Shown here: positions 8,925-44,060 of the stretch, piece after piece
How the letters are laid out: each line of letters opens with the position of its first letter
How positions within the stretch are numbered: the stretch's first letter is position 1
Source: Prevotella sp.
Lineage (GTDB): Bacteria; Bacteroidota; Bacteroidia; Bacteroidales; Bacteroidaceae
Assembly (NCBI GenBank): GCA_017458005.1
Contig: JAFTGH010000014.1
Coordinates: 1-64,000, forward strand
Direction: 5' to 3'
Length of the DNA: 64,000 nucleotides
Notes under the pieces: generated by a model
Seen by the model: only the letters and a program-made list of their open reading frames with translations
Told to the model about the DNA's origin: nothing
Database searches by the model: none
Translations under genes and position numbers: made by a program

Positions 8925-9476
8925 TTACCTTTTTGTCTTATACCCACAGCGGTAGCGTCCTTGAGTGAGTGCGCGCAACTTGCTCTTTATAAGTTGTTTA
9001 CGCAGAGGGGATACACGGTCGACAAAGACTTTTCCCTCCAGATGGTCGAACTCATGCTGCATCACACGGGTAAGATAGCCCTCCACCCACTCGTCGTGTG
9101 GTTTCAAATCGCCATCAAGCCATTGTACACGAATACGGGTAGGACGTGTCACCTTCTCATGGATGGCAGGAAGCGAGAGGCATCCCTCCTCCATCGTCTC
9201 TGTCTCCGTATCATCGTATTCCATGATATGCGGATTGATAAACACCTGGCGGAAACCTTTGTATTCGGGCATATCATCACTAATCACATCCAAGTCGATA
9301 ACCACGACACGGATAGACTTGCCAATCTGGGGGGCGGCAAGACCGATACCCTCACTCTCAGCAAGCGTATCCCACATGTCGGCTATCAACTGTTGCAAGT
9401 CGGGATAGTCGACAGGTATATCCTCGGCGACTTTACGAAGCACGGGATGACCATATATATAAATAGGTAGAACCAT
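8925..9476 (-). CDS. def: Peptide deformylase
   Basis: Removes the N-formyl group from new proteins in the cytoplasm. All three family motifs are present in the 183-aa protein: GIGLAAPQ (43-50), EGCLS (97-101, metal-ligand Cys) and HEFDH (141-145, metal-ligand His pair with catalytic Glu). Length is normal. It lies between ruvX and the TPR gene on the same strand with gaps of 12 and 36 nt, both made of GGTAAAAA-like repeats, so the three are probably one operon. Confidence 0.97.
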   Translation of the reverse strand: MVLPIYIYGHPVLRKVAEDIPVDYPDLQQLIADMWDTLAESEGIGLAAPQIGKSIRVVVIDLDVISDDMPEYKGFRQVFINPHIMEYDDTETETMEEGCLSLPAIHEKVTRPTRIRVQWLDGDLKPHDEWVEGYLTRVMQHEFDHLEGKVFVDRVSPLRKQLIKSKLRALTQGRYRCGYKTKR

Positions 9477-9488
9477 CTTTTTCTTTTT

Positions 9489-32643: not shown

Positions 32644-33117
32644 ATGGAAGAGTTGGTGCTGAAATCCACGATTCAGGTGGTAAAGATGGAGGAATTGGCA
32701 GAGCAAGAGCAGGCATTGGTCGACAGTGCCATCGCGGCTACAAGCCATTCCTATGCAGTCTATTCCCACTTCCATGTGGGAGCCGCTGTCCTGCTGGCAA
32801 ATGGCAAGACAGTATTGGGTTGCAATCAGGAGAATGTGTCCTATCCTGCAGGCATCTGTGCTGAGCGATCGGCAATCTACGCCGCAGGCGCACAGTATCC
32901 TGACATCCCTGTTGAGACGCTTGCCATCGCTGCCCGCGACACAGAGGGGAACCTGTTGGAGGAGCCCATCAGTCCATGTGGCATCTGCCGACAGGTCATC
33001 GTAGAGACGGAGACACGTTTCCATCGTCCCATACGCATCCTTCTGCATGGAACGAAACACGTTTATATCATTCAGGGTATCAAGGCATTAATGCCTTTAA
33101 GTTTCAAAGAATTCTAA
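32644..33117 (+). CDS. cdd: Cytidine deaminase
   Basis: The 157-aa protein has the zinc site C72-A-E-R and PCGIC (111-115), and SHFHVGAAVL near the substrate pocket. It deaminates cytidine or deoxycytidine in pyrimidine salvage. Its 3' end overlaps that of the next gene by 14 nt, tail-to-tail. Confidence 0.96.
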   Translation: MEELVLKSTIQVVKMEELAEQEQALVDSAIAATSHSYAVYSHFHVGAAVLLANGKTVLGCNQENVSYPAGICAERSAIYAAGAQYPDIPVETLAIAARDTEGNLLEEPISPCGICRQVIVETETRFHRPIRILLHGTKHVYIIQGIKALMPLSFKEF

Positions 33118-34387
33118 GGTCGCCTATCTTGTTCTGGAAAGCAGGTGACTCCTCTTTGATGGAGAAATTATAGAAGAGGTTGTCCGTGTCGAAAGTCACA
33201 AAATGCTTCTCACCTTGTATCTCGTCTTTCGGACTCTCCCAGATAATATTCTCAAACTCCTCCGTATCGGCAGGCTGGAGTGTTCGGAGAATACAATTGA
33301 CGAAGGAATAGTCGGCACCCTCGCCCATAATCACATCCTCCTCATAGCCCGTTACGAGGGTGTTGTCACACACCAATATGCTCTCTGCGTCAAAGCGCAG
33401 TGCCACCCCCCTGTCAGCAGAGAAAGGATAGAATTGCGCCAAGGTGGTATGGTTGACATACACGGTAGCCCCTATCACATTCAGACAATCGCCTAATGTG
33501 TTGGTGATACGGCAACTGTCGATATCCGCCGTCGCCTCTTTCAGTTCCAGACCCGTCCCCTTGCAGTTATGGATGATGCAGCGCAACAGGGAGAGGGACG
33601 ACTTGGAGTCGCAGGAGATACCAGCGTAACTGCTACGTATCTCGCAGTCTGTCATCCTGTTCGCTGTCGAACTGGCGGCGATGAAGATTCCTTTCCATTG
33701 TCCGCTCACACGGTCGTATGGCAGATAGGAGAACATGCGGTCGAGCCGATCACCACGGAACAGGCAACTGTCGGCTATCAACGTACCGTTGACCGTCAAG
33801 CCTGCGCCGTCGTGGAAATACAACTGGGCATGCGACAGTGTCAGGGTGGCGCCCTCGGCAATCGTCATCCCCTTCTGGATGATGATAGGACGTCGCTCGT
33901 CCAAGACCATATCCTCAGAGACGACCCATTCATCGTACTGGATAGCCTTCCAACTGTAGGCGCTCAACTTCAAAGGCTGCTCCCTGCCGTTCTCCAAGGC
34001 GAAGACCAACTGATCCTCCACCCGTTGCGGCTCGTCCTCCTGGGTCTCAGGTGCCGTCAACTCCACAAACACACGGATGGAGTCGCCCTTGCGAATCTCA
34101 AAATCGTAGGCGACAGAATCCACGTAGTTGCCATCCACATTCACACGGAAACCTGACTGCGACGGACTGTTCAGACGAACCTCACGGATGCGGACACCAG
34201 ACTCTCCCCTATTATAGACCCAGAAATCATAAGTGCGTGTCGATGTCTGGTTGAAGACGGTGTCCATGGCAAGACTGTCGATTGAGAAGTCAAGCATGGA
34301 AGATGCGTCTGACGAGAACTTGTCGTTGTCAGAGCAACTGACCAGAAAGGCGGTCAGGATGAGGAGTAATAAAGGAATCCGCTTCAT
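33104..34387 (-). CDS. Right-handed beta-helix lipoprotein
   Basis: The 427-aa protein has a lipoprotein signal (ILTAFLVSCS, Cys about 18). An N-terminal Ig-like region (about 30-140) is followed by a solenoid of short beta-helix turns (about 150-385: IIIQKGMTIAEGATLTLSH, LTVNGTLIADSCLFRGD, DCEIRSSYAGISC, LRCIIHNCKGTGLELK, SCRITNTLGDCLNVIG). Such folds usually bind or cut carbohydrates, but no catalytic residues could be assigned. ATG 34387 gives the expected signal peptide; 16 upstream codons are probably not used. Confidence 0.85.
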   Translation of the reverse strand: MKRIPLLLLILTAFLVSCSDNDKFSSDASSMLDFSIDSLAMDTVFNQTSTRTYDFWVYNRGESGVRIREVRLNSPSQSGFRVNVDGNYVDSVAYDFEIRKGDSIRVFVELTAPETQEDEPQRVEDQLVFALENGREQPLKLSAYSWKAIQYDEWVVSEDMVLDERRPIIIQKGMTIAEGATLTLSHAQLYFHDGAGLTVNGTLIADSCLFRGDRLDRMFSYLPYDRVSGQWKGIFIAASSTANRMTDCEIRSSYAGISCDSKSSLSLLRCIIHNCKGTGLELKEATADIDSCRITNTLGDCLNVIGATVYVNHTTLAQFYPFSADRGVALRFDAESILVCDNTLVTGYEEDVIMGEGADYSFVNCILRTLQPADTEEFENIIWESPKDEIQGEKHFVTFDTDNLFYNFSIKEESPAFQNKIGDLRIL

Positions 34388-34424
34388 CTGATGATAAAAC
34401 GGATTCCCTATTTGATTATTGTCT

Positions 34425-34982
34425 CTATTTACCAAAATATCTCTTTAACAAACCTGCGAAACCAGCACCATGACGCGCCTCGTCCTTCGCCATCTCATGA
34501 ACGGTGTCGTGAATAGCGTCGAAACCAGCAGCCTTGGCATTTTTGGCGATACGGAACTTATCCTCGCAAGCACCAGCCTCTGCGGCAGCGCGCTTCTCCA
34601 GATTGGTCTTGGTGTCCCATACGCACTCACCCAGCAACTCAGCGAAACGACTCGCATGGTCAGCCTCCTCGAAAGCATAACGCTTGAAAGCCTCTGCGAT
34701 CTCGGGATATCCCTCACGGTCAGCCTGACGAGCCATGGCAAGATACATACCTACCTCACCACACTCACCATTGAAATGGTTGCGGAGGTCGTCGATCATC
34801 TCTTGTGATACACCCTCGGGCTTGCCGTCACCAATCTTATGTACGGTAGCATAGGTCACGTCGGCATCCTCTTTCAACTCAGAGAACTTAGAGGCAGGAG
34901 CCTTACAGATGGGGCACTTCTCGGGAGCAGCATCGCCTTCATAGATATATCCACAAACGGCGCAAATGAATTTCTTCTTCAT
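34425..34982 (-). CDS. Reverse rubrerythrin (peroxide-scavenging)
   Basis: The 185-aa protein has an N-terminal rubredoxin-type Fe site (C7, C10, C23, C26) followed by a ferritin-like four-helix domain with di-iron ligands in [28 protein letters not shown] and [10 protein letters not shown]. The rubredoxin part precedes the ferritin part, the reverse of classic rubrerythrin. It probably reduces peroxide in an anaerobe. Preceded by a perfect promoter (35020-35051). Confidence 0.94.
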
Positions 34983-35019
34983 AGCAGTAATTGTTTAGTT
35001 TTAAGAATAATACTTTTCG

Positions 35020-35051
35020 CAAAGATACGAAGAAAAAACAAATCCTGCAAA
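35020..35051 (-). promoter_or_regulatory. Promoter of the rubrerythrin gene
   Basis: Minus-strand TTTG (35048-35051), 20-nt spacer, TATCTTTG (35020-35027). Start near 35013, leader about 31 nt. Confidence 0.7.
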
Positions 35052-35107
35052 TTTCTTCTGCTTTTTCTCTTAATTTATACGTTGTCTAAGGTCATGCAGA
35101 CCTCTTT

Positions 35108-35202
35108 TCGAATGTAAGTCACAAACGAGGAGTTTGAACGTTACATTCACCTCGAATGTAAGCCACAAACACCTTGGAAGTCTGTCTTATTTTAAATAAG
35201 AC
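35108..35202. repeat. Direct repeat and palindrome at the island border
   Basis: TCGAATGTAAGTCACAAAC (35108-35126) recurs at 35152-35170 with one change. Between them TTACATTC (35141-35148) is inverted to GAATGTAA (35154-35161). A 19-nt palindrome with 9-bp arms (GTCTTATTT/AAATAAGAC) lies at 35184-35202. No gene here. Confidence 0.7.
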
Positions 35203-35235
35203 ATACCGACTGATTTTTTAAAGAATTCGAAAAAA

Positions 35236-35436
35236 CTACTCCCCTACTCCCGTCATGTGGCTCACCCCCCGATAAATAAAGGGCGCAAGGCACGGGAGTA
35301 GAAGGATGTTCTACTCCCGTACTAGTCCCTTTTTAAGTTCACGGGAGAAGGACGGGAGTAGTAGAATTTTCTACTCCCGTCCTGAAACGCCTTGTACATC
35401 GGCATTTCAGAAGAAAAAGGGAGTATGGGAGTAGAT
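35236..35436. repeat. Cluster of GGGAGTA/TACTCCC motifs forming two tandem palindromes
   Basis: The 10-mer ACGGGAGTAG or its complement occurs repeatedly. Perfect hairpins are 35292-35303/35309-35320 (12 bp) and 35351-35361/35371-35381 (11 bp), about 60 bp apart. Single copies lie at 35236-35253 (two direct copies) and 35420-35435 (two direct copies of GGGAGTA), with a near copy at 35341-35348. The order and spacing resemble an iteron-like or binding-site cluster. Confidence 0.75.
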
Positions 35437-35470
35437 TTTGTGAAATTCTTTTTTATGCGACAAATGATGA

Positions 35471-35571
35471 AGGTGCCGCCTCCTCGCTACGAAGCCCGTA
35501 CCTCCAAGGGCAGGAGGCGGCACCTCCGAGGGTCGAAGGTACGGCCTTCGAAGGGAGGACGTCGGGGCTTC
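35471..35571. repeat. GC-rich nested palindromes
   Basis: A perfect 14-bp stem 35471-35484/35512-35525 (AGGTGCCGCCTCCT) is followed by TCGAAGG/CCTTCGA (35533-35539/35545-35551). GAAGCCC (35491-35497) can pair with GGGCTTC (35565-35571), so alternative folds compete. The composition is clearly more GC-rich than its AT-rich surroundings. The open frame across this stretch is judged not to be a gene. Confidence 0.65.
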
Positions 35572-35593
35572 TTCCGTGAGCAGGCTCCTACGT

Positions 35594-35672
35594 GCAACCT
35601 CATGACAACCTTGACAACCTCAAAAAGGTTGCAAAGCCTGTGGTTATCGGTGTTTTGTCAACCTGACAACCT
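35594..35672. repeat. TGACAACCT direct repeats with a GCAACCT/AGGTTGC hairpin
   Basis: TGACAACCT occurs at 35603-35611, 35612-35620 and 35664-35672, with a related TGTCAACC just before the last. GCAACCT (35594-35600) can pair with AGGTTGC (35626-35632). The remaining bases to 35780 are AT-rich without a visible gene. Confidence 0.6.
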
Positions 35673-35779
35673 TTTTATTGAAAATTTCCTGTTATGGAAG
35701 TTTTTGCTATATAAAAAAATCGTGTTTGAGTGAATCAAGGCAGAGTCCTCAAATTTTTTTACTTAGCAAATTAAAAAAT

Positions 35780-36442
35780 CTATATAATACTCACTTCTAA
35801 CTTAAGTTTCATCATAGCATCAATGATGCGGAGCATTTTGTACTTTTCTTTTGTTTGGCTTGGAACTGTCAGCCATAGGTCTTGTCCAACCTGCACTTGA
35901 CCATTGTACTTTTTCATAGTAGTAATAATTGGCTTGTTCATGAATGACAGTTCCTTTCGCTTAATGTTTTCAGGACCAATCTGCCAAATAGTATCTAACA
36001 GGGTATCAATAGGATTCTCGCCTGCAGCATATTCGCCATTAGAAAACTTCACGAGCAACTTACTATCGCGTTTCTTTTTCTTCTGAACAACTTTCACGTC
36101 ACTGGCAATGAAGTCCGTACCAATCTCAACTTGCATGTTAAGATTAAACTGCCTAATAATCACCAATAGTTGTCTGAACTTCTTATCAGAATCGCTGTTT
36201 ACATTCACAAACCAACCATTGCACAGAGACTTTACGTACTCTTCATTCCCTGAATATGCTGTTTTACTGAGCAATGGCTCATGAGAATTCTCTAAAGATA
36301 TACTATCATAAAGACTTGTATCAAGATTAGCCAGAGCCTCCACAAATGTCATGGTGGTACTCTTGTGGCAGATGACACTTCCGTCGGGCAACGTCACTCT
36401 CAGCAATTTCTTCTTTGCTCGCTGTCGCAGGTTCTCATCCAT
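35780..36442 (-). CDS. Unknown protein of two tandem similar domains, R-M operon
   Basis: The 220-aa protein is an internal duplication. Residues about 13-107 and 127-220 align: LLRVTLPDGSVICHKST…FVEAL… matches KLLVKFSNGEYAAGENPIDTL…, and …GWFVNVNSDSDKKFRQLL…FNLNMQVEI matches …DLWLTVPSQTKEKYKMLR…LKLEVSII. A Lys-rich linker (KKKKRDSK) joins them. Single copies of a similar small domain occur in other restriction-modification operons as I recall, function unknown. It starts 3 nt after the endonuclease gene, so it is part of the operon; a regulator, DNA-binding accessory or immunity factor are all possible. Confidence 0.8.
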   Translation of the reverse strand: MDENLRQRAKKKLLRVTLPDGSVICHKSTTMTFVEALANLDTSLYDSISLENSHEPLLSKTAYSGNEEYVKSLCNGWFVNVNSDSDKKFRQLLVIIRQFNLNMQVEIGTDFIASDVKVVQKKKKRDSKLLVKFSNGEYAAGENPIDTLLDTIWQIGPENIKRKELSFMNKPIITTMKKYNGQVQVGQDLWLTVPSQTKEKYKMLRIIDAMMKLKLEVSII

Positions 36443-36445
36443 AAT

Positions 36446-37642
36446 TCAACGCATCACAAAATGTCTTGGCATATGTTCCTGTCTTTCCTTCACCATTCCT
36501 ATGAACGAAGACAGGTCTGTAATATCTGTCCTATAGTCTTTCGGAAAACTCTGAATGTACTTCTTTGGAACCACCAGCCTCAGATTATAGTCCCTCATTT
36601 CACGCAATTGATTGGCAGAAATTCCCTGTTGAAGCGTAAACAAGTATTTCACATCTACCCTGTCTGCCTCATTCAGAACCTGACGCCATCGGTCTTTGCA
36701 CGTTGTCTTAGCACCCAACACTGTTATCAAATCACCAGGAAATTCTAAGTTATGATAACACTCTCCATTTGGAAAGAGGAAATCCGGTTTCTTGTTCTCC
36801 TCCGTTACGGCTTGTTCTTCAAATATCAACTCATTATGCGTGAATATATCTGCCAAATGATGCTCTAATGATTTACCCGCCCTTGACTTTCGACGATTCA
36901 AAACCTCATTAGCCATTGAGACAAATGACTCAATGGAATCGAAAGGGTGTGTGCAGATGTTAGCATACACCTTTTCCTCCATGCTTTTGAACAGGCTGTA
37001 TTCAGTATCTATCCAACCTAAGAGAACATCATCGGGTTTAGCCACAATACTGCGACTATTAATACTATTCGCCTCGTTATAACAATTCCTTGCACCTAAA
37101 GCCATAATCCTTGTTTCAGGGAACATGTCATATTGGTTCACAAACTTGGAAATAAGAGAGAATAGCCTTTGCTCTGGTCTCAGTGACCGAGAGACATCTA
37201 TAAGTTGGTTGGTCTTGTCCGATGACAAATTGAAGAAAGAGAAGAACTCGTCAATATCGTCGTCCGACCGCAGCACATACGCCACATAGTAATTGCGCTC
37301 AACACGAGCAAGTACCAACAAGTCCCCCACATTGTCATCGGTAAGATACGGAAAGGCGCGTCCAAACCGCGTCAGCCGATATTCATTCCGTGTTCCAACG
37401 CCATAATAAATAAAACGGCTGTCAGTTTCAAAATCGTCCTGCCATTTAATTTTGATATATCGGTCAACATTACTTCCTTTCACTCCCTCTGTTTCTAAAA
37501 ACATCGACCATGCTTCCTTTGAAATATGAAAGCCACATTGATGTCCTCCTGTTGTACCAGTATCGTTGGCAGTAATAAATTTGCACAATGCAGCAGAGGA
37601 ATGTTGCACTTTGCTGATTGCGGAATTAAGGATTTCACTCAT
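36446..37642 (-). CDS. EcoRII-like type II restriction endonuclease
   Basis: The 398-aa protein closely follows the EcoRII plan (404 aa). An N-terminal B3-like DNA-binding domain (about 10-130, GTTGGHQCGFHI…RYIKI.W…RNEYRLTRFGRAFPYL) is followed by a C-terminal catalytic domain (about 245-390) with RRKSRAGKSLEHHL, PDFLFPNGECYHNLEFP (286-302) and KTTCKDRWRQVLNEA (312-326). EcoRII cuts CCWGG and needs two sites; that specificity is likely but inferred. The partner methyltransferase is 5 nt upstream. Confidence 0.93.
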   Translation of the reverse strand: MSEILNSAISKVQHSSAALCKFITANDTGTTGGHQCGFHISKEAWSMFLETEGVKGSNVDRYIKIKWQDDFETDSRFIYYGVGTRNEYRLTRFGRAFPYLTDDNVGDLLVLARVERNYYVAYVLRSDDDIDEFFSFFNLSSDKTNQLIDVSRSLRPEQRLFSLISKFVNQYDMFPETRIMALGARNCYNEANSINSRSIVAKPDDVLLGWIDTEYSLFKSMEEKVYANICTHPFDSIESFVSMANEVLNRRKSRAGKSLEHHLADIFTHNELIFEEQAVTEENKKPDFLFPNGECYHNLEFPGDLITVLGAKTTCKDRWRQVLNEADRVDVKYLFTLQQGISANQLREMRDYNLRLVVPKKYIQSFPKDYRTDITDLSSFIGMVKERQEHMPRHFVMR

Positions 37643-37647
37643 AACTA

Positions 37648-38952
37648 CTATGGATTAAGCATTGTTTTAATTATCCTTTTCGATACGGCCGTAATGAGAG
37701 GGACTACTACCGAATTGCCACATTGTCGATATGCCTGCACATCGGAAACGGCACTCAATATATAAGTATCTGGGTATCCCATTAGCCTTGCACATTCCCG
37801 TGGGGTCAGCCGTCGAGGGTTTATACCTTCTCCTTGTGGAATAAGAATTTCTGAGCCATCTTTATAATATCGAGCACTCAACGTTCTTGTTATTCCATTT
37901 AGGTCTACAAGACCAAAGCCAAACCCATTCCCTTTTTCCTGATGGCGAACAGCATACTTCTGTAAATAATCCCACAGTTTATCAGAAAGGGTGTACTTCC
38001 CATCAACAAGAGGCTCAAGTATTTGTCCTATTGATATATTGGACTCTTTCTGTTCTGGGAATTCAAAAGACTCCTCACCATGGTATAATTCTTTGTTGAA
38101 TCCAACTATCATAATTCGCTCACGATGCTGTGGTACATATGCTTTGCCATCCATCACCAAATAATGGATAGAATAGTTAAGTTCCTCTAATGTCTCTTTG
38201 ATGATACGGAAAGTGTTTCCTTGGTCATGCGAGACTAGATTCTTCACATTCTCCAAAAAAAATGCTTTAGGTCGATGACGGTTTATGATGTCTGCAACGT
38301 CGAAAAACAAAGTTCCTTGCGTTTTATCCTTGAATCCAGTTTCACGCCCCAAACTCTTCTTTTTTGATACGCCTGCTATTGAAAACGGTTGGCATGGAAA
38401 TCCCGCACATAATACATCGAAGGTCTTGGGGATATAACTCTTTGTTGACTCCTTCGTTATATCTCCAAAAGGCATTTCCCCAAAATTTGCCATATATGTT
38501 TTCTGTGCATATTTGTTCCATTCTGACGAAAACACGCATTTTCCCCCTTGTGCCTGCATGGCGAGTCTAAAGCCCCCCATTCCAGCAAACAAATCTATAA
38601 ATGTGAACTTAGGACGTTTTGGATCTGGAAAGGGTATCTCAAAGAAATCTTGGAACAATTCGTATTGAATAGGATTCTCTGCCGCCTTTGTTGCAGTCTT
38701 TGCATCCAAGTCAGGAAAAGCGTAGAAAATGAAATCACGGATATACTGTATTGCTTCAAGATTTTCCTCTCTTCTCTTCTTGATTCCACGTATATTCCCT
38801 GTATTATGGAGAAAATGCGTAATGACTGCCATTTGGTCTGTATATGACTTTTCACCATATACAGAAACACGGAAATCCTTCCCTGCTATCGTTTCTTTCT
38901 TTATATTCTCTGGAAAAGAGGATAGTTTTAGTTGCCCTTTAATATCTTTCAT
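37648..38952 (-). CDS. DNA (cytosine-5) methyltransferase (Dcm/M.EcoRII-like)
   Basis: The 434-aa protein has the ordered C5-MTase motifs: motif I FIDLFAGMGGFRLA (118-131), motif IV catalytic GFPCQPFS (184-191, Cys187), motif VI LENVKNL (233-239), motif VIII QHRERIMIVGF, and late motifs IX and X (RLTPRECARLMGYPD, QCGNSVVVPL). It should protect the sites cut by the EcoRII-like enzyme. An N-terminal extension of about 110 residues is as in M.EcoRII. Confidence 0.95.
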   Translation of the reverse strand: MKDIKGQLKLSSFPENIKKETIAGKDFRVSVYGEKSYTDQMAVITHFLHNTGNIRGIKKRREENLEAIQYIRDFIFYAFPDLDAKTATKAAENPIQYELFQDFFEIPFPDPKRPKFTFIDLFAGMGGFRLAMQAQGGKCVFSSEWNKYAQKTYMANFGEMPFGDITKESTKSYIPKTFDVLCAGFPCQPFSIAGVSKKKSLGRETGFKDKTQGTLFFDVADIINRHRPKAFFLENVKNLVSHDQGNTFRIIKETLEELNYSIHYLVMDGKAYVPQHRERIMIVGFNKELYHGEESFEFPEQKESNISIGQILEPLVDGKYTLSDKLWDYLQKYAVRHQEKGNGFGFGLVDLNGITRTLSARYYKDGSEILIPQGEGINPRRLTPRECARLMGYPDTYILSAVSDVQAYRQCGNSVVVPLITAVSKRIIKTMLNP

Positions 38953-38972
38953 GAATTATAACCTTTCTAATA

Positions 38973-40991
38973 TCAACAATTAAAACCTTGTTCTTGTGCC
39001 TTCTCCACTATTTTCAAAGCAGTAAGAGCCTGTTTCAATGATGTTATAGGGCGATTTCTTGAGCGCATTGTGCCATAATTGAATGCGGCCTTGCGCTCCA
39101 TGGGTGTCAGCATATCGTTCTTCTTAGCCCAAGCAGCAAGAGCAAACCAGTAATTTGGTTCTATTTTCTCCGCTTCTTGTATACGATTCTGTTGAGTTTC
39201 ATTCAAGTAGGAGCCGTCATCGTTAGTATCAGGCTGCATCATATCGTCAGAGAACTTTTCCAACTCTCCCAGTCTTATTTTTAGTTTACTCCAGCAGTCA
39301 GACTTCTTAGACCATTCACCAACATTCGAAGACTGACCGCCAACTCCTGCTCCAGTTAAATGGGACCACACCAATGGAATGAGTTTTTCGATCTTCTCTA
39401 CGACCTCATGCTGAATATTCTGATGCTCCCAAATGTAGGTTAAGTCCAATTGACCATCAGAAAGGAACGAGATTGCAGCCATGACATAAGTATTCATGTT
39501 TGCTTTATATCCACCAAGGTTCTTTGACTTGACAATTGCATCAATCGAATTAAACAGAATTCCCTTGGCAACTAGATTCTTAAAATACCTGGCAGAAATG
39601 GTTGGCTTTTCACGCTTTATAGTAGCAACAAATTGAATATAATTCTTTTCTGCACCCTTACAAACTTCGTACGGTTTCTGTAACCAAGAAACTTCGTATT
39701 TAGCGATATCCGTCTTAGTTATTTTCTGTTTCTTCGGGTATTCAATCTTGAAACTCTTTTCGTTATACCCATTCAACTGCGCCAATTGGTCAATGTACTG
39801 ACCACGAGTACGTTCAAAATACCATTTACATACAGGTTTGTTGTTTCCATTGGGCACCCACTCGGAACGGCTGAACTTTTCCAAATCTACCAAATAAGGA
39901 TCATTGGCTGAGAAATCCGAGTTCTTAATAGCAGTCTGACTGTTTGCTGACACTGAAATGGATTTAATTATTTCGTCATTGTGCTCCGCATCACGAATGA
40001 CGCTAATCTTCATCGGTACATAAACCTTGCTAAGGTCTACTTCTTTGTCACTTATTGATGCCGCGATTGAGGCAGTCGTCTGACCGCCATTCACAATCTG
40101 CCAGTCATACAACCGCGTTATGTAAAGCGTTCCATCAATTTCTTTGGTCTCAATCTCACTGGCTGTCGTAGATATTCCATTATTATAGGAAAAAAACATA
40201 TCGGGTGCAGTGCGAAGCGTCTTGCGTATCTCTTTATTAACTTTTCCTTTAAACTGAAGGAATGTACGGACGTTCTTTTCTAACAAGACCTGTTGATATT
40301 GTTTGTATATCTTTGCTAACGTGATACCTGGGATAATGGCAAGATAAGCATCTACAAACAAGTTTTGCTCACTCATCTTCAGACATTGTAACTCCGTGTT
40401 ATAGTTAGTAGGGAAATCAATCTCCACCTTCTCCTTTCCAGCACGGATATTATGCTGTTGGTAGACGCGCTGCATGTCCCAGACGTTATATTCAATCACA
40501 TAGTCATTGTCATCACTTTCCACAGCAGCAGGAACAGCAGATGGATCCGTCAAGCCATCAGTAATAACATAAATACGCAATTGGCTAATATGCCCTTTCG
40601 TACTCTGCACAAGTTTTGCAACCTCGACTATCTCATCACTCGGAGCAACATCCACATTCTTGAAAAGCGCACCCGTCATAGCCTCGCGATAAAAAGCCAT
40701 TAAGAAGTTAAATCCCTGCTGTACCTTACTGTTATTCACTTTCCCAAGTAGTGTCTCAGCCTTTACCAAATAGAAGAGGTCAAGTGATTCCGCCTCGTCA
40801 TTATAGTCATAAGCCGTTATACGCGAACGGGTCTTTTGGAAAGAACAAATCTCTGGGGCATTTACCTCCCCATTATCCTCTATATACTCTAATATGCTGG
40901 CTGCCAGTTCTTGGTCGTAGTCACTGCCCGTCATTTCAACGGAAATCTTGACATTCCCAATAAATTCTTGTGCAAATTCTTTAATATCCAT
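38973..40991 (-). CDS. AIPR-family abortive infection phage resistance protein
   Basis: From ATG 40991 the protein is 672 aa. The AIPR signature (PF10592) is clear: MFFSYNNGISTTASEI, DWQIVNGGQTTASIAAS, VPMKISVI and SISVSANSQTAIKNSDFSANDPY. AIPR proteins were first noted in phage resistance and often sit beside restriction-modification genes; the activity is not well established. It is the first gene of the island operon, 20 nt before the methyltransferase. The 34 codons upstream to 41093 are unlikely, because the TACCTTTG box (41015-41022) lies within them. Confidence 0.92.
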   Translation of the reverse strand: MDIKEFAQEFIGNVKISVEMTGSDYDQELAASILEYIEDNGEVNAPEICSFQKTRSRITAYDYNDEAESLDLFYLVKAETLLGKVNNSKVQQGFNFLMAFYREAMTGALFKNVDVAPSDEIVEVAKLVQSTKGHISQLRIYVITDGLTDPSAVPAAVESDDNDYVIEYNVWDMQRVYQQHNIRAGKEKVEIDFPTNYNTELQCLKMSEQNLFVDAYLAIIPGITLAKIYKQYQQVLLEKNVRTFLQFKGKVNKEIRKTLRTAPDMFFSYNNGISTTASEIETKEIDGTLYITRLYDWQIVNGGQTTASIAASISDKEVDLSKVYVPMKISVIRDAEHNDEIIKSISVSANSQTAIKNSDFSANDPYLVDLEKFSRSEWVPNGNNKPVCKWYFERTRGQYIDQLAQLNGYNEKSFKIEYPKKQKITKTDIAKYEVSWLQKPYEVCKGAEKNYIQFVATIKREKPTISARYFKNLVAKGILFNSIDAIVKSKNLGGYKANMNTYVMAAISFLSDGQLDLTYIWEHQNIQHEVVEKIEKLIPLVWSHLTGAGVGGQSSNVGEWSKKSDCWSKLKIRLGELEKFSDDMMQPDTNDDGSYLNETQQNRIQEAEKIEPNYWFALAAWAKKNDMLTPMERKAAFNYGTMRSRNRPITSLKQALTALKIVEKAQEQGFNC

Positions 40992-41014
40992 AGTGATATA
41001 TTGATTTCTCAATG

Positions 41015-41022
41015 CAAAGGTA
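41015..41022 (-). promoter_or_regulatory. -7 box of the defence island operon
   Basis: TACCTTTG (minus), 24 nt before ATG 40991; no good TTTG at the -33 distance, so activity may be weak or regulated. Confidence 0.5.
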
Positions 41023-41214
41023 ATCATTTTTAGCGAGAGTCCATCATGTTTTACTTTTATTAAGTTAATCATCGTTTCTTGTACTATCCTCAAACTTGAT
41101 TTCTATCTCCTTACCACTTCGCTAAAGGCCGATAAACAACATTTATTGCGTTTCCAAAAAGCATTAGATTTCTCTGGCTAACATTCCCCTTTTTCGTAAA
41201 ACAACTGCAATTTA

Positions 41215-41564
41215 ACATGAGTTCAACGAATTTAATTCATCCAACAGATTAGGTTATTTACTTTGATACACAATATCGTTGGGCACATTGGTATCGTTTT
41301 CATTGCCGCTGGGTTCTATATAGTACCTAAGGAAAATAAATCGCTAATAGGTATCCATAAACCATTCTCTTTTGCATATTGCTCCGCAACACGCTCCTCA
41401 ACTTCGAAATGATTTACAAGTTCTTTGCCATCTCGAAGTTCCGCTTCATATAATTGGCAGCGTCTATGGAGTTCATTGGCGACTTCATAGATTCTTCGAT
41501 TTTGTGGAGTTTCCTCTCCACTGCCTCCTTGTGAAACTGATTCAAATATGTCATTGCTCATCAT
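41215..41564 (-). pseudogene. Decayed polyvalent-protein-like gene
   Basis: The intact N-terminal frame (82 aa from 41564) ends KENGLWIPISDLFSLGTI then stop. The typical continuation is still visible in shifted frames: EPSGNENDTNVP right after the stop, then a KVNNL-like stretch interrupted by a further stop and shift. ENGLWIP..DLF.LG.PSGNENDT is a pattern I know from small kinase-like polyvalent-protein genes of Bacteroidales mobile elements. At least two frame disruptions make this a pseudogene at the edge of the island. Confidence 0.6.
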
Positions 41565-41630
41565 TTGTTATGATTTATATGCAAAGATACAAATATTTTT
41601 GTAATCAACAAGGATTATAGGGAAAAGTTT

Positions 41631-41756
41631 TTATTGAAACAAATCCCCTTCTACCCTGTTGTCATGAGAGGTTTCATTACTTAGGGCATCCACGTACCCC
41701 ATGAAGAGATCAACACACGCTACGATGATAGCACTGATAAAAAATAAACTAATCAT
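41631..41756 (-). CDS. Possible 41-aa membrane peptide
   Basis: ATG 41756 opens a 41-codon frame: a hydrophobic helix (MISLFFISAIIVACVDLFMG) and a polar tail ending EGDLFQ. A TACCTTTG box lies 29 nt upstream (41785-41792). The distance is right for a leader of about 22 nt, which makes a real small gene plausible. No homology known to me. Confidence 0.4.
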   Translation of the reverse strand: MISLFFISAIIVACVDLFMGYVDALSNETSHDNRVEGDLFQ

Positions 41757-41784
41757 ATTGCATTCTTTTTAAATGTTTCTGGTG

Positions 41785-41792
41785 CAAAGGTA
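41785..41792 (-). promoter_or_regulatory. -7 box before the 41-aa frame
   Basis: TACCTTTG on the minus strand; TTTG lies 14 nt upstream inside the terminator hairpin, shorter than the usual spacing. Confidence 0.4.
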
Positions 41793-41795
41793 AAA

Positions 41796-41826
41796 GTCAG
41801 GTGTCCCAAAGCGTGGGACACCTGAC
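41796..41826 (-). terminator. Strong intrinsic terminator after the acetylesterase gene
   Basis: A perfect 13-bp stem 41796-41808/41814-41826 (GTCAGGTGTCCCA) with a 5-nt loop, followed on the minus strand by TTTTA. It lies 49 nt after the stop of the GDSL gene. Confidence 0.8.
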
Positions 41827-41874
41827 AAGTATTTTTGTTAAAGAATGCTAATAGGGATGGTGATGCCGTTGTGT

Positions 41875-42705
41875 CTATTCCTTAAACTCAGCATCATGAT
41901 GGTATTTCGCCAACACAGGAATCTCTTGGACGAGAGCGGCTGCCAACCTGCCTGCCACGACATGCGCACCATACTGATTATAATGGGTGTTGTCCTGACG
42001 ACCATCAGGTAAGGCAGGATGCTCACCAGGCTTGTACCACATGTGTAGTTTCTTGGAGCCCTCCACACCCAGCGACTGCTCGAGGTCATGGGTGATCTTT
42101 GTCGCATCCACGAAATGGACATTCATCCGCTGGGCGACATCACGAGGAGCCACGGCATAGAGTTTGTGGGTGTCGATGAGCGAATCACCCTCAACAACCT
42201 TGGCGGCATCAGCGAAGGTCGTGTTACGAAGCGACTCGTCATCTGCTGTCTTCATCGGCTTTTGGGCGAAGTTACGGCGTACCACGGGATTCATGATGAC
42301 GGGGATACCACCTTTCTCACGAGTCTCACGAACATATTTTGCCAAGGTGTAATCGAAAGTTGAGCCTGGGTCGGTATGACGGTCGAGACCTGGTTTCTCG
42401 TCATTATGTCCGAACTGGATAATCACATAGTCGCCTGGCTTCATGAGTGAGAGGACTTTATCCCATCGTCCCTCATTGATGAAGGAAATGGAGGAACGTC
42501 CGTTCACCGCATGATTGTCGACTCGCACATACGTAGAGTCGAAGAAACACTGGAGCGCCATGCCCCACCCTCTCTCTGGCGAGCCTTTCGACAAGTCTTT
42601 CTTTGCCGCCGTTGAGTCGCCGATAATGAAAATCGTGGTCACGTGATCTCTTGTGAAAGAGGTCAGCATGACAAGTGCGACGAGGAGAAAGAGGATTTTC
42701 TTCAT
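41875..42705 (-). CDS. Rhamnogalacturonan acetylesterase-like SGNH hydrolase
   Basis: The 276-aa protein has a signal peptide (to about 18) and the SGNH blocks: FIIGDSTAA (catalytic Ser), [22 protein letters not shown] and a late [14 protein letters not shown] (Asp-His pair). The GDSTAA…GHND pattern is that of RhgT/YesT-type pectin acetylesterases, which remove acetyl groups from rhamnogalacturonan. Exported. It overlaps the hisS stop by 4 nt, an unusual partner, so it is probably carried on the hisS transcript. Confidence 0.88.
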
Positions 42706-44060
42706 AACCGACTTATTAGTTCATCAGGTGTCAGCAATTGCTGCTCACCCGTCTCCATATTCTTCAAGGTAATCTTACCCTCATTCATCTCGTTCTCGCC
42801 AGCAAGAGCCACAAATGGAATCTGCTTCGCATTGGCATAACTCATCTGCTTTTTCATCTTGGCGGCATCAGGATAGATCTCCGCACGGAAGCCATTCTCG
42901 CGTACCTTATTTATAATAGGTAGGCAATAGGCTGTCTCTTGCTCGCCAAAATTGATGAATAGAATCTGAGTAGCATTCATGGAGTCTTTGGGGTATAGAT
43001 CGAGCGTGTTCAGCACATCGTAGATACGGTCGGCGCCAAAGGAGATGCCCACGCCACTCAGACCTGGCATACCAAAAATACCAGTCAGGTTGTCGTAGCG
43101 ACCACCGCCTGTGATACTACCCATCTCCACATCCAATGCCTTCACCTCGAAGATAGCACCAGTATAATAGTTCAGTCCACGAGCCAAGGTAAGGTCAAGT
43201 TGTATCTCGTTCTTAAGACCGACTGTCGCCAATGTGTTAAGGATATAGCGGGTTTCCTCCACGCCTTTCAGTCCTGTCTCACTATCCTTCAGCACCTCGG
43301 CAATCGTCTGCAGTTTCTCCTCATTCGAACCACTCAGGGAAATGATCGGTTGCAGTCGTGCGATAGCCTCCTCGCTGATGCCGTCAGCACGGAGTTCCTC
43401 ATTGACATTGTCGATACCTATCTTGTCCAGTTTGTCGATGGCAACGGTAATATCCACGATCTTATCCGCCTCACCGATGACCTCCGCAATACCTGTTAGT
43501 ATCTTGCGGTTGTTGATCTTGATCTGAACACGAATGCCAAAGCGAGTGAAGACAGTATCCACAATCTGCATCAACTCCACCTCGTTGAGCAAGGAGTCGG
43601 AGCCTACGACATCGGCATCACACTGATAAAACTCACGATAGCGTCCCTTCTGAGGACGGTCAGCACGCCATACTGGCTGTATCTGATAACGTTTGAAAGG
43701 CAGTTGCAGTTCCTCACGATGCATCACCACATAGCGGGCAAAGGGGACGGTGAGGTCATAACGCAGTCCCTTCTCGCACAGTTTAGCGGCGAGATGCAGG
43801 GCATTACGCTCCTGCAGTTCCTGTTCTGTGACCTTGCCCATAAAGTCTCCGCTATTCAGGACTTTGAAGAGCAGTTTGTCACCCTCTTCTCCATACTTGC
43901 CCATCAGTGTCTGCAGAGTCTCCATAGCAGGTGTCTCTATCTGCTGAAAGCCATAGAGCGCATAGACCTCACGGATGGTGTTGAAGATATAGTTGCGCTT
44001 CGCCATCTCGACAGGTCCGAAATCGCGAGTGCCTTTAGGTATACTTGGTTTCTGTGCCAT
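42702..44060 (-). CDS. hisS: Histidyl-tRNA synthetase
   Basis: The 452-aa class II synthetase has motif 1 at [16 protein letters not shown], motif 2 at [24 protein letters not shown], the HisA box [15 protein letters not shown] and motif 3 [11 protein letters not shown], plus a C-terminal anticodon-binding domain. It is shortly followed by the acetylesterase gene and directly preceded by purA. Confidence 0.97.

Follow-up and report, generated by a model that had tools for sequence, protein, structure and literature searches.

Which genes of a compact defence operon belong together, and what does its last gene contribute? The question is raised by four genes in a window of 64,000 nt (Prevotella sp., GenBank assembly GCA_017458005.1, contig JAFTGH010000014.1, positions 1 to 64,000; by window we mean this whole stretch), which comes from a genome of 3.05 Mb. 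They lie on the minus strand in the 5′ to 3′ order AIPR family protein, Dcm-like C5-cytosine DNA methyltransferase (C5 MTase), EcoRII endonuclease and a protein of 220 aa, with spacings of 20, 5 and 3 nt. An earlier description made without database searches (the sequence-only reading) took them for one unit in fixed combination, perhaps a restriction-modification (R-M) pair with AIPR as abortive back-up and a modulator. The open reading frame (ORF) calls on the minus strand bear out the four genes and their gaps. R-M plus AIPR plus modulator continues to describe the operon best, yet the link to EcoRII is not fixed: the conserved unit is the AIPR gene plus the 220-aa gene, which occurs with different R-M cores.

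Relatives of the 220-aa gene were sought in 84,980 genomes, in a search restricted to two short peptide patterns. Of the 15 loci that came up, 14 have a two-domain protein at 34–66% identity (the gene of one, L069, has a stop codon); the named genomes are mostly Prevotella. An AIPR of the window's clade stands beside the 220-aa gene at six of these 14 (L062, L064, L065, where the contig end cuts it, L067, L071 and L074), and none was found in the stretch fetched at the other eight. Conversely, AIPRs at least 70% identical to the window's occur in 3 of 301 genomes of the family and 2 of 393 of the order, four distinct genomes, and the 220-aa gene is at the locus in all four. Around more distant AIPRs (31–46% identical) no SeqA-like domain, the type discussed below for the 220-aa protein, was found at any of 13 family loci or at the five fetched of 16 order loci, some of these contigs being short. 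For the six loci at which neither gene is truncated, the pruned trees of AIPR and of the 220-aa gene agree in all three splits, the window+L062 split being weakly supported in the 220-aa tree.

The cores accompanying the pair vary. In the window EcoRII lies between the two genes, and in L074 a divergent C5 MTase–EcoRII pair lies next to them. L062, L064, L065 and L067 have two C5 MTases and genes for an AAA protein and a 711-aa protein, sometimes joined by an HNH or NOV_C gene. L071 has two C5 MTases, HNH, GmrSD and a helix-turn-helix/WYL-like protein (WYL match under cut-off). C5 MTases, detected by Pfam or BLAST, are present in all seven cores seen with the pair. The McrB-like AAA and 711-aa genes are found upstream of the 220-aa gene at 7 of the 14 loci (L062–L068).

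That the combination with EcoRII is fixed can be ruled out. A survey of 301 family genomes for EcoRII-C gave 20 positive genomes with 21 loci, all examined within the stretches fetched, and 19 carry neither AIPR nor the 220-aa gene; some of these stretches are short (6.8 kb for L138). The window is the sole locus with both. In L025 (genome G030) a 220-aa remnant, consisting of the start region and residues 178–220, directly follows EcoRII, with no convincing AIPR. Eighteen of the 19 bare loci have a C5 MTase–EcoRII pair (the EcoRII frame of L144 is split) and L145 has fragments only. When the 19 and G030 were searched for remnants at relaxed settings, only G030 was convincing, the others reaching E-values from 5e-4 (L140) to 0.1, and a model of the SeqA-like domain found nothing at the scanned loci other than G030. 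One of the 19 is a second C5 MTase–EcoRII pair in the window's own genome (L130, G000:C58:1–10000; MTase 71% and EcoRII 53% identical to the window's); the 10 kb retrieved there contain neither AIPR nor a SeqA-like gene. In the EcoRII tree the window groups with L025 and with L135, which has no accessory gene (support 1.0), and L074 groups with L127 (support 0.85). From these groupings, EcoRII probably entered the AIPR/220-aa module on two or more occasions, or was swapped inside it.

In L093 (G083:C298) an EcoRII C-terminal fragment and a C5 MTase are followed in a row by an AIPR from a different clade (33%), a separate association of EcoRII with AIPR that has no SeqA-like gene. L023 (G199), at 9315–9479, has a lone N-terminal piece of the 220-aa gene (residues 2–42, 66% identical), the rest of the operon being absent.

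The 220-aa protein consists of two copies of one domain, as the sequence-only reading had claimed. Domain 1 spans approximately residues 12–108 and domain 2 residues 124–220; comparison of N-half and C-half profiles over 15 aligned homologues gave a probability of 98 and E 1.8e-13 (as a single comparison), and the structure model has two domains with nearly identical order of elements. Pfam, NCBIfam and PADLOC returned no significant family for it, and a profile search of PDB sequences with its family returned no match. On the evidence of its predicted fold and of profile similarity, the protein is assigned to the SeqA C-terminal DNA-binding fold, a relation that the sequence-only reading had not noticed. 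SeqA rows of the profile comparison align to domain 1 only, so that the relation of domain 2 to SeqA follows from its relation to domain 1. The Pfam SeqA model (PF03925, cut-off 25.5 bits) is not reached: among 25 domain-family members L024 scores 13 bits, and PF03925 is not listed for the other 24, the window's protein included. KTSC is matched in 3 of the 25. SeqA has an N-terminal oligomerisation domain, a linker and a DNA-binding part (PMC6225831). The 220-aa protein differs in having two copies per chain of the domain that is single there, and in being encoded in Bacteroidales R-M operons; its first strand begins at residue 13, which leaves no space for a SeqA-type oligomerisation domain (residues 1–33) and linker. 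Its isoelectric point is basic. In E. coli the fold reads half-methylated DNA and SeqA sequesters hemimethylated origins (PMC6225831).

We tentatively propose, short of calling it probable, that an EcoRII-type R-M core here sits inside a separate, co-inherited module of AIPR and tandem SeqA-like protein, the latter acting as a reader of methylation state coupled to AIPR. The SeqA-like protein would bind DNA and read methylation at the sites of the partner MTase, most likely in the hemimethylated state that follows replication, two linked domains in one chain taking the place of the SeqA dimer. While self sites appeared newly replicated or methylated, AIPR, and perhaps the nuclease too, would be held off. 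Infecting DNA or failing methylation would erase the marks; AIPR would then be freed and the cell stopped, backing up restriction as a second line. What the analysis shows is the domain duplication, the predicted fold with its profile relation to SeqA, the basic charge and the joint inheritance with AIPR across different R-M cores; DNA binding, a preference for hemimethylated sites of the partner MTase and the gating of AIPR are inferred. Once its DNA has been replicated, a cell with an R-M system has to leave the half-methylated copies intact and, to our knowledge, little has been described of accessory genes that use this state. A SeqA-like protein linked to AIPR and to interchangeable R-M cores would be a tangible, testable sensor of half-methylation and would connect replication-control proteins with phage defence. 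It also offers an initial clue, structural and functional, to a domain family found repeatedly next to BREX and R-M genes, which here had no Pfam match of its own.

Other observations qualify this proposal. Neither AIPR nor the McrB-like genes accompany the 220-aa gene at 5 of the 14 loci (L069, L070, which has a contig end, L072, L073 and L075). The sequence-only reading would have been damaged by random neighbours, and the AIPR does not have them (4/4 genomes with the 220-aa gene), but these five loci are partly of that kind for the 220-aa gene. SeqA contacts GATC through R116, T117, R118, N150 and N152. The N150/N152 loop could be aligned in 15 rows, R116–R118 not being placed: N152 corresponds to D or N in 14 and N150 to Q in 14. 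Over the two copies, domain 1 mostly has Gln in place of Asn150, and domain 2 mostly has Pro. Judged from the alignment, the altered loop fits a target other than GATC, and all seven cores seen with the AIPR pair have C5 MTases; the target is not thereby proven.

The replacement of Asn150 in most copies speaks for the chief rival, a simple antitoxin or inhibitor role in which the protein would hold AIPR by direct contact, its SeqA-like fold kept and its DNA reading lost. The dependence is also one-way, since the clade AIPR was not seen without the 220-aa gene in its four genomes and the reverse was seen at 8 of 14 loci, and G030, where the 220-aa gene has decayed, has no convincing AIPR. We nevertheless consider it unlikely. 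At L063, L066 and L068 the 220-aa gene follows the McrB-like AAA and 711-aa genes with AIPR absent, and single-domain relatives keep company with BREX, type IIG-like and type I genes, the neighbour scan revealing no AIPR there.

Less likely still is a role in regulating the operon or the timing of replication, in which the protein would control the MTase–nuclease balance by SeqA-like sequestration. R-M operons often need such control, and the sequestration of hemimethylated origins by SeqA (PMC6225831) offers a precedent. However, the gene is the last of its operon, where the one −7 box lies upstream of AIPR and none is intergenic; R-M balance does not require it, given that 19 of the 21 EcoRII loci do without; and in L074 its transcription runs away from the R-M pair. 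The same 19 loci, together with the N-terminal and catalytic domains that EcoRII has of its own, make it improbable that the protein is a DNA-targeting subunit bringing the nuclease or AIPR to modified or unmodified phage sites; the SeqA-like fold, the basic isoelectric point and partners that include very different nucleases and effectors would suit such a role, as would the McrB-like AAA protein of L064 (5749–7866), whose C-terminus adds a third SeqA-like domain (residues 604–703) that six other such proteins lack. Finally, defence genes cluster in general and AIPR is common with R-M genes (PMC2292703 and PMC3506569), but identical pruned trees, short gaps and a pair recurring around different cores make functionally unlinked neighbours in a defence island very improbable.

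Single SeqA-like domains, some inside longer proteins, were found at 21 further loci. An R-M, GmrSD or BREX gene adjoins or lies in the same run at nine, a count made on hand-chosen neighbours without a matched control: BREX (L028, L053), Eco57I-type (L029, L030, L034, L054, L055), HsdR (L057) and GmrSD (L033). At L051 and L052 the single neighbour gene scanned is non-defence, six more scanned loci have neighbours of no clear type (L024, L026, L027, L056, L058, L076), and L031, L032, L035 and L059 lay outside the scan. At 53 control loci with 4583 ORFs the domain model had no hit with an E-value of 1 or lower. Three further domain matches lie in genomes G651 and G659. It is conceivable, though we hold it with more doubt than the proposal for the window, that single and tandem SeqA-like domains are methylation-state readers of Bacteroidales defence (C5 R-M, type IIG-like, type I and BREX), the tandem form gating AIPR by the hemimethylation that any MTase in the exchangeable core leaves. 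In that case the tandem protein would stand guard over the R-M mark, not over the phage.

In the BREX operons, found in two different families, the SeqA-like-domain protein comes right after BrxL (L028:8673–9704 and L053:6509–7504; BrxC and PglZ were confirmed in L028). The 220-aa protein gave no match in plasmids and a single one (22%) in phages, MT838449. This phage-labelled short faecal contig (L003:1–1179) encodes two SeqA-like domains after an acidic N-terminal part. Viral contig scans with P0001, A3, P0004 and L030, by a few short peptide patterns each, found no relative.

Pfam matches above cut-off uphold the identities given earlier to the other three proteins. AIPR matches PF10592 (E 8.2e-88, 295 bits, cut-off 25) and PF22879 (AIPR_N, E 8.5e-28), and the motif [VI]NGGQTT is in all 19 aligned AIPR rows, the window's included. 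It also matches the PADLOC MzaE and AbiU models and shares with the AIPR/AbiU family, MzaE of MZA included, the AIPR domain and R-M neighbours; it differs in its pairing with the 220-aa gene in every clade genome found. An MZA system was rejected: the NCBIfam MzaE model gives 330 bits, under its cut-off of 1050, and no Mza family is among the matches listed for the other three genes (for the MTase, the best 25 of 61 PADLOC families). A HEPN toxin in AIPR is predicted in PMC3506569; of the 19 aligned AIPRs, 13 contain an Rx4-6H pattern, at positions not shared, and six lack it, and we do not rely on it. A profile search of PDB sequences with AIPR gave weak, implausible rows only.

The MTase matches PF00145 (DNA_methylase, E 1.3e-90) and TIGR00675, has 3lx6 and 3me5 as best PDB matches and contains the C5 MTase motifs; the narrower NCBIfam model PRK10458 gives 373 of 710 bits, its cut-off not being reached. 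The nuclease has EcoRII-C (E 2e-60) and EcoRII-N (E 1e-22), both over the Pfam cut-off, and aligns to 1na6 (R.EcoRII) in two stretches, gap-free over the core PDFLFP...KTTCKDRWRQ. The catalytic motifs of the MTase and the catalytic core of the nuclease are present. The pair is an EcoRII-type R-M core, with probable CCWGG methylation and cutting. In EcoRII R-M (R.EcoRII/M.EcoRII-Dcm) a nuclease of the same two domains and a Dcm-like C5 MTase are likewise adjacent and co-directional; the window's operon differs by the flanking AIPR and SeqA-like genes.

The cores of L062, L064, L065 and L067, with two C5 MTases, AAA and 711-aa proteins, resemble LlaJI/BsuMI-type R-M, which comprises two C5 MTases and a McrB-like subunit; they differ in that AIPR precedes them and the 220-aa gene follows. 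The AAA protein of L064 matches PADLOC REase_II models. The uncharacterised 711-aa protein (L062:7866–9998 and five relatives) lies between the McrB-like and SeqA-like genes at 7 of 7 loci and has a GDSKYYK stretch that could be a PD-(D/E)XK-type site. Neither Pfam nor PADLOC gave a match for the L064 copy, and a profile search of PDB sequences with the 711-aa protein gave weak, implausible rows only.

An association of AIPR with R-M genes is already in print (PMC2292703, PMC3506569 and PMC5608340). In the open-licence literature searched we found no SeqA-like protein or domain paired with R-M or BREX operons; the passages found in PMC6326788 and PMC12707154 use SeqA as a DNA marker.

Table 1. 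Features of the operon and its surroundings, in coordinates of the window
Feature	Coordinates	Strand	Remarks
AIPR family protein	38973..40991	-	672 aa, P0004, first gene; Pfam PF10592 + PF22879
C5-cytosine DNA methyltransferase, Dcm-like	37648..38952	-	434 aa, P0003; Pfam PF00145
EcoRII restriction endonuclease, N-terminal + C-terminal catalytic domains	36446..37642	-	398 aa, P0002
220-aa tandem SeqA-like protein	35780..36442	-	P0001, last gene; two domains
−7 box TACCTTTG	41015..41022	-	23 nt ahead of AIPR start codon
Inserted segment containing operon	35090..41910	.	Comparison with relative G721 (L202)

The AIPR frame is open as far as a TTG at 41093, and its nearest homologues start aligning at the ATG at 40991. 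The −7 consensus is TAnnTTTG. A box upstream of AIPR, cited earlier as a sign of a single unit, is present and the intergenic spaces of the operon have none, but TANNTTTG occurs 68 times in the window against 36 expected, so the lone box is weak evidence. The operon looks like an insertion, since in G721 the rubrerythrin gene is adjacent to those for esterase and HisRS, with just 31 bp in place of the segment. An Rfam search of 33000–44000 gave no match. In the spacer between rubrerythrin and operon, positions 35454–35574 have an inverted copy, 72% identical, near rubrerythrin in G719 (L199).

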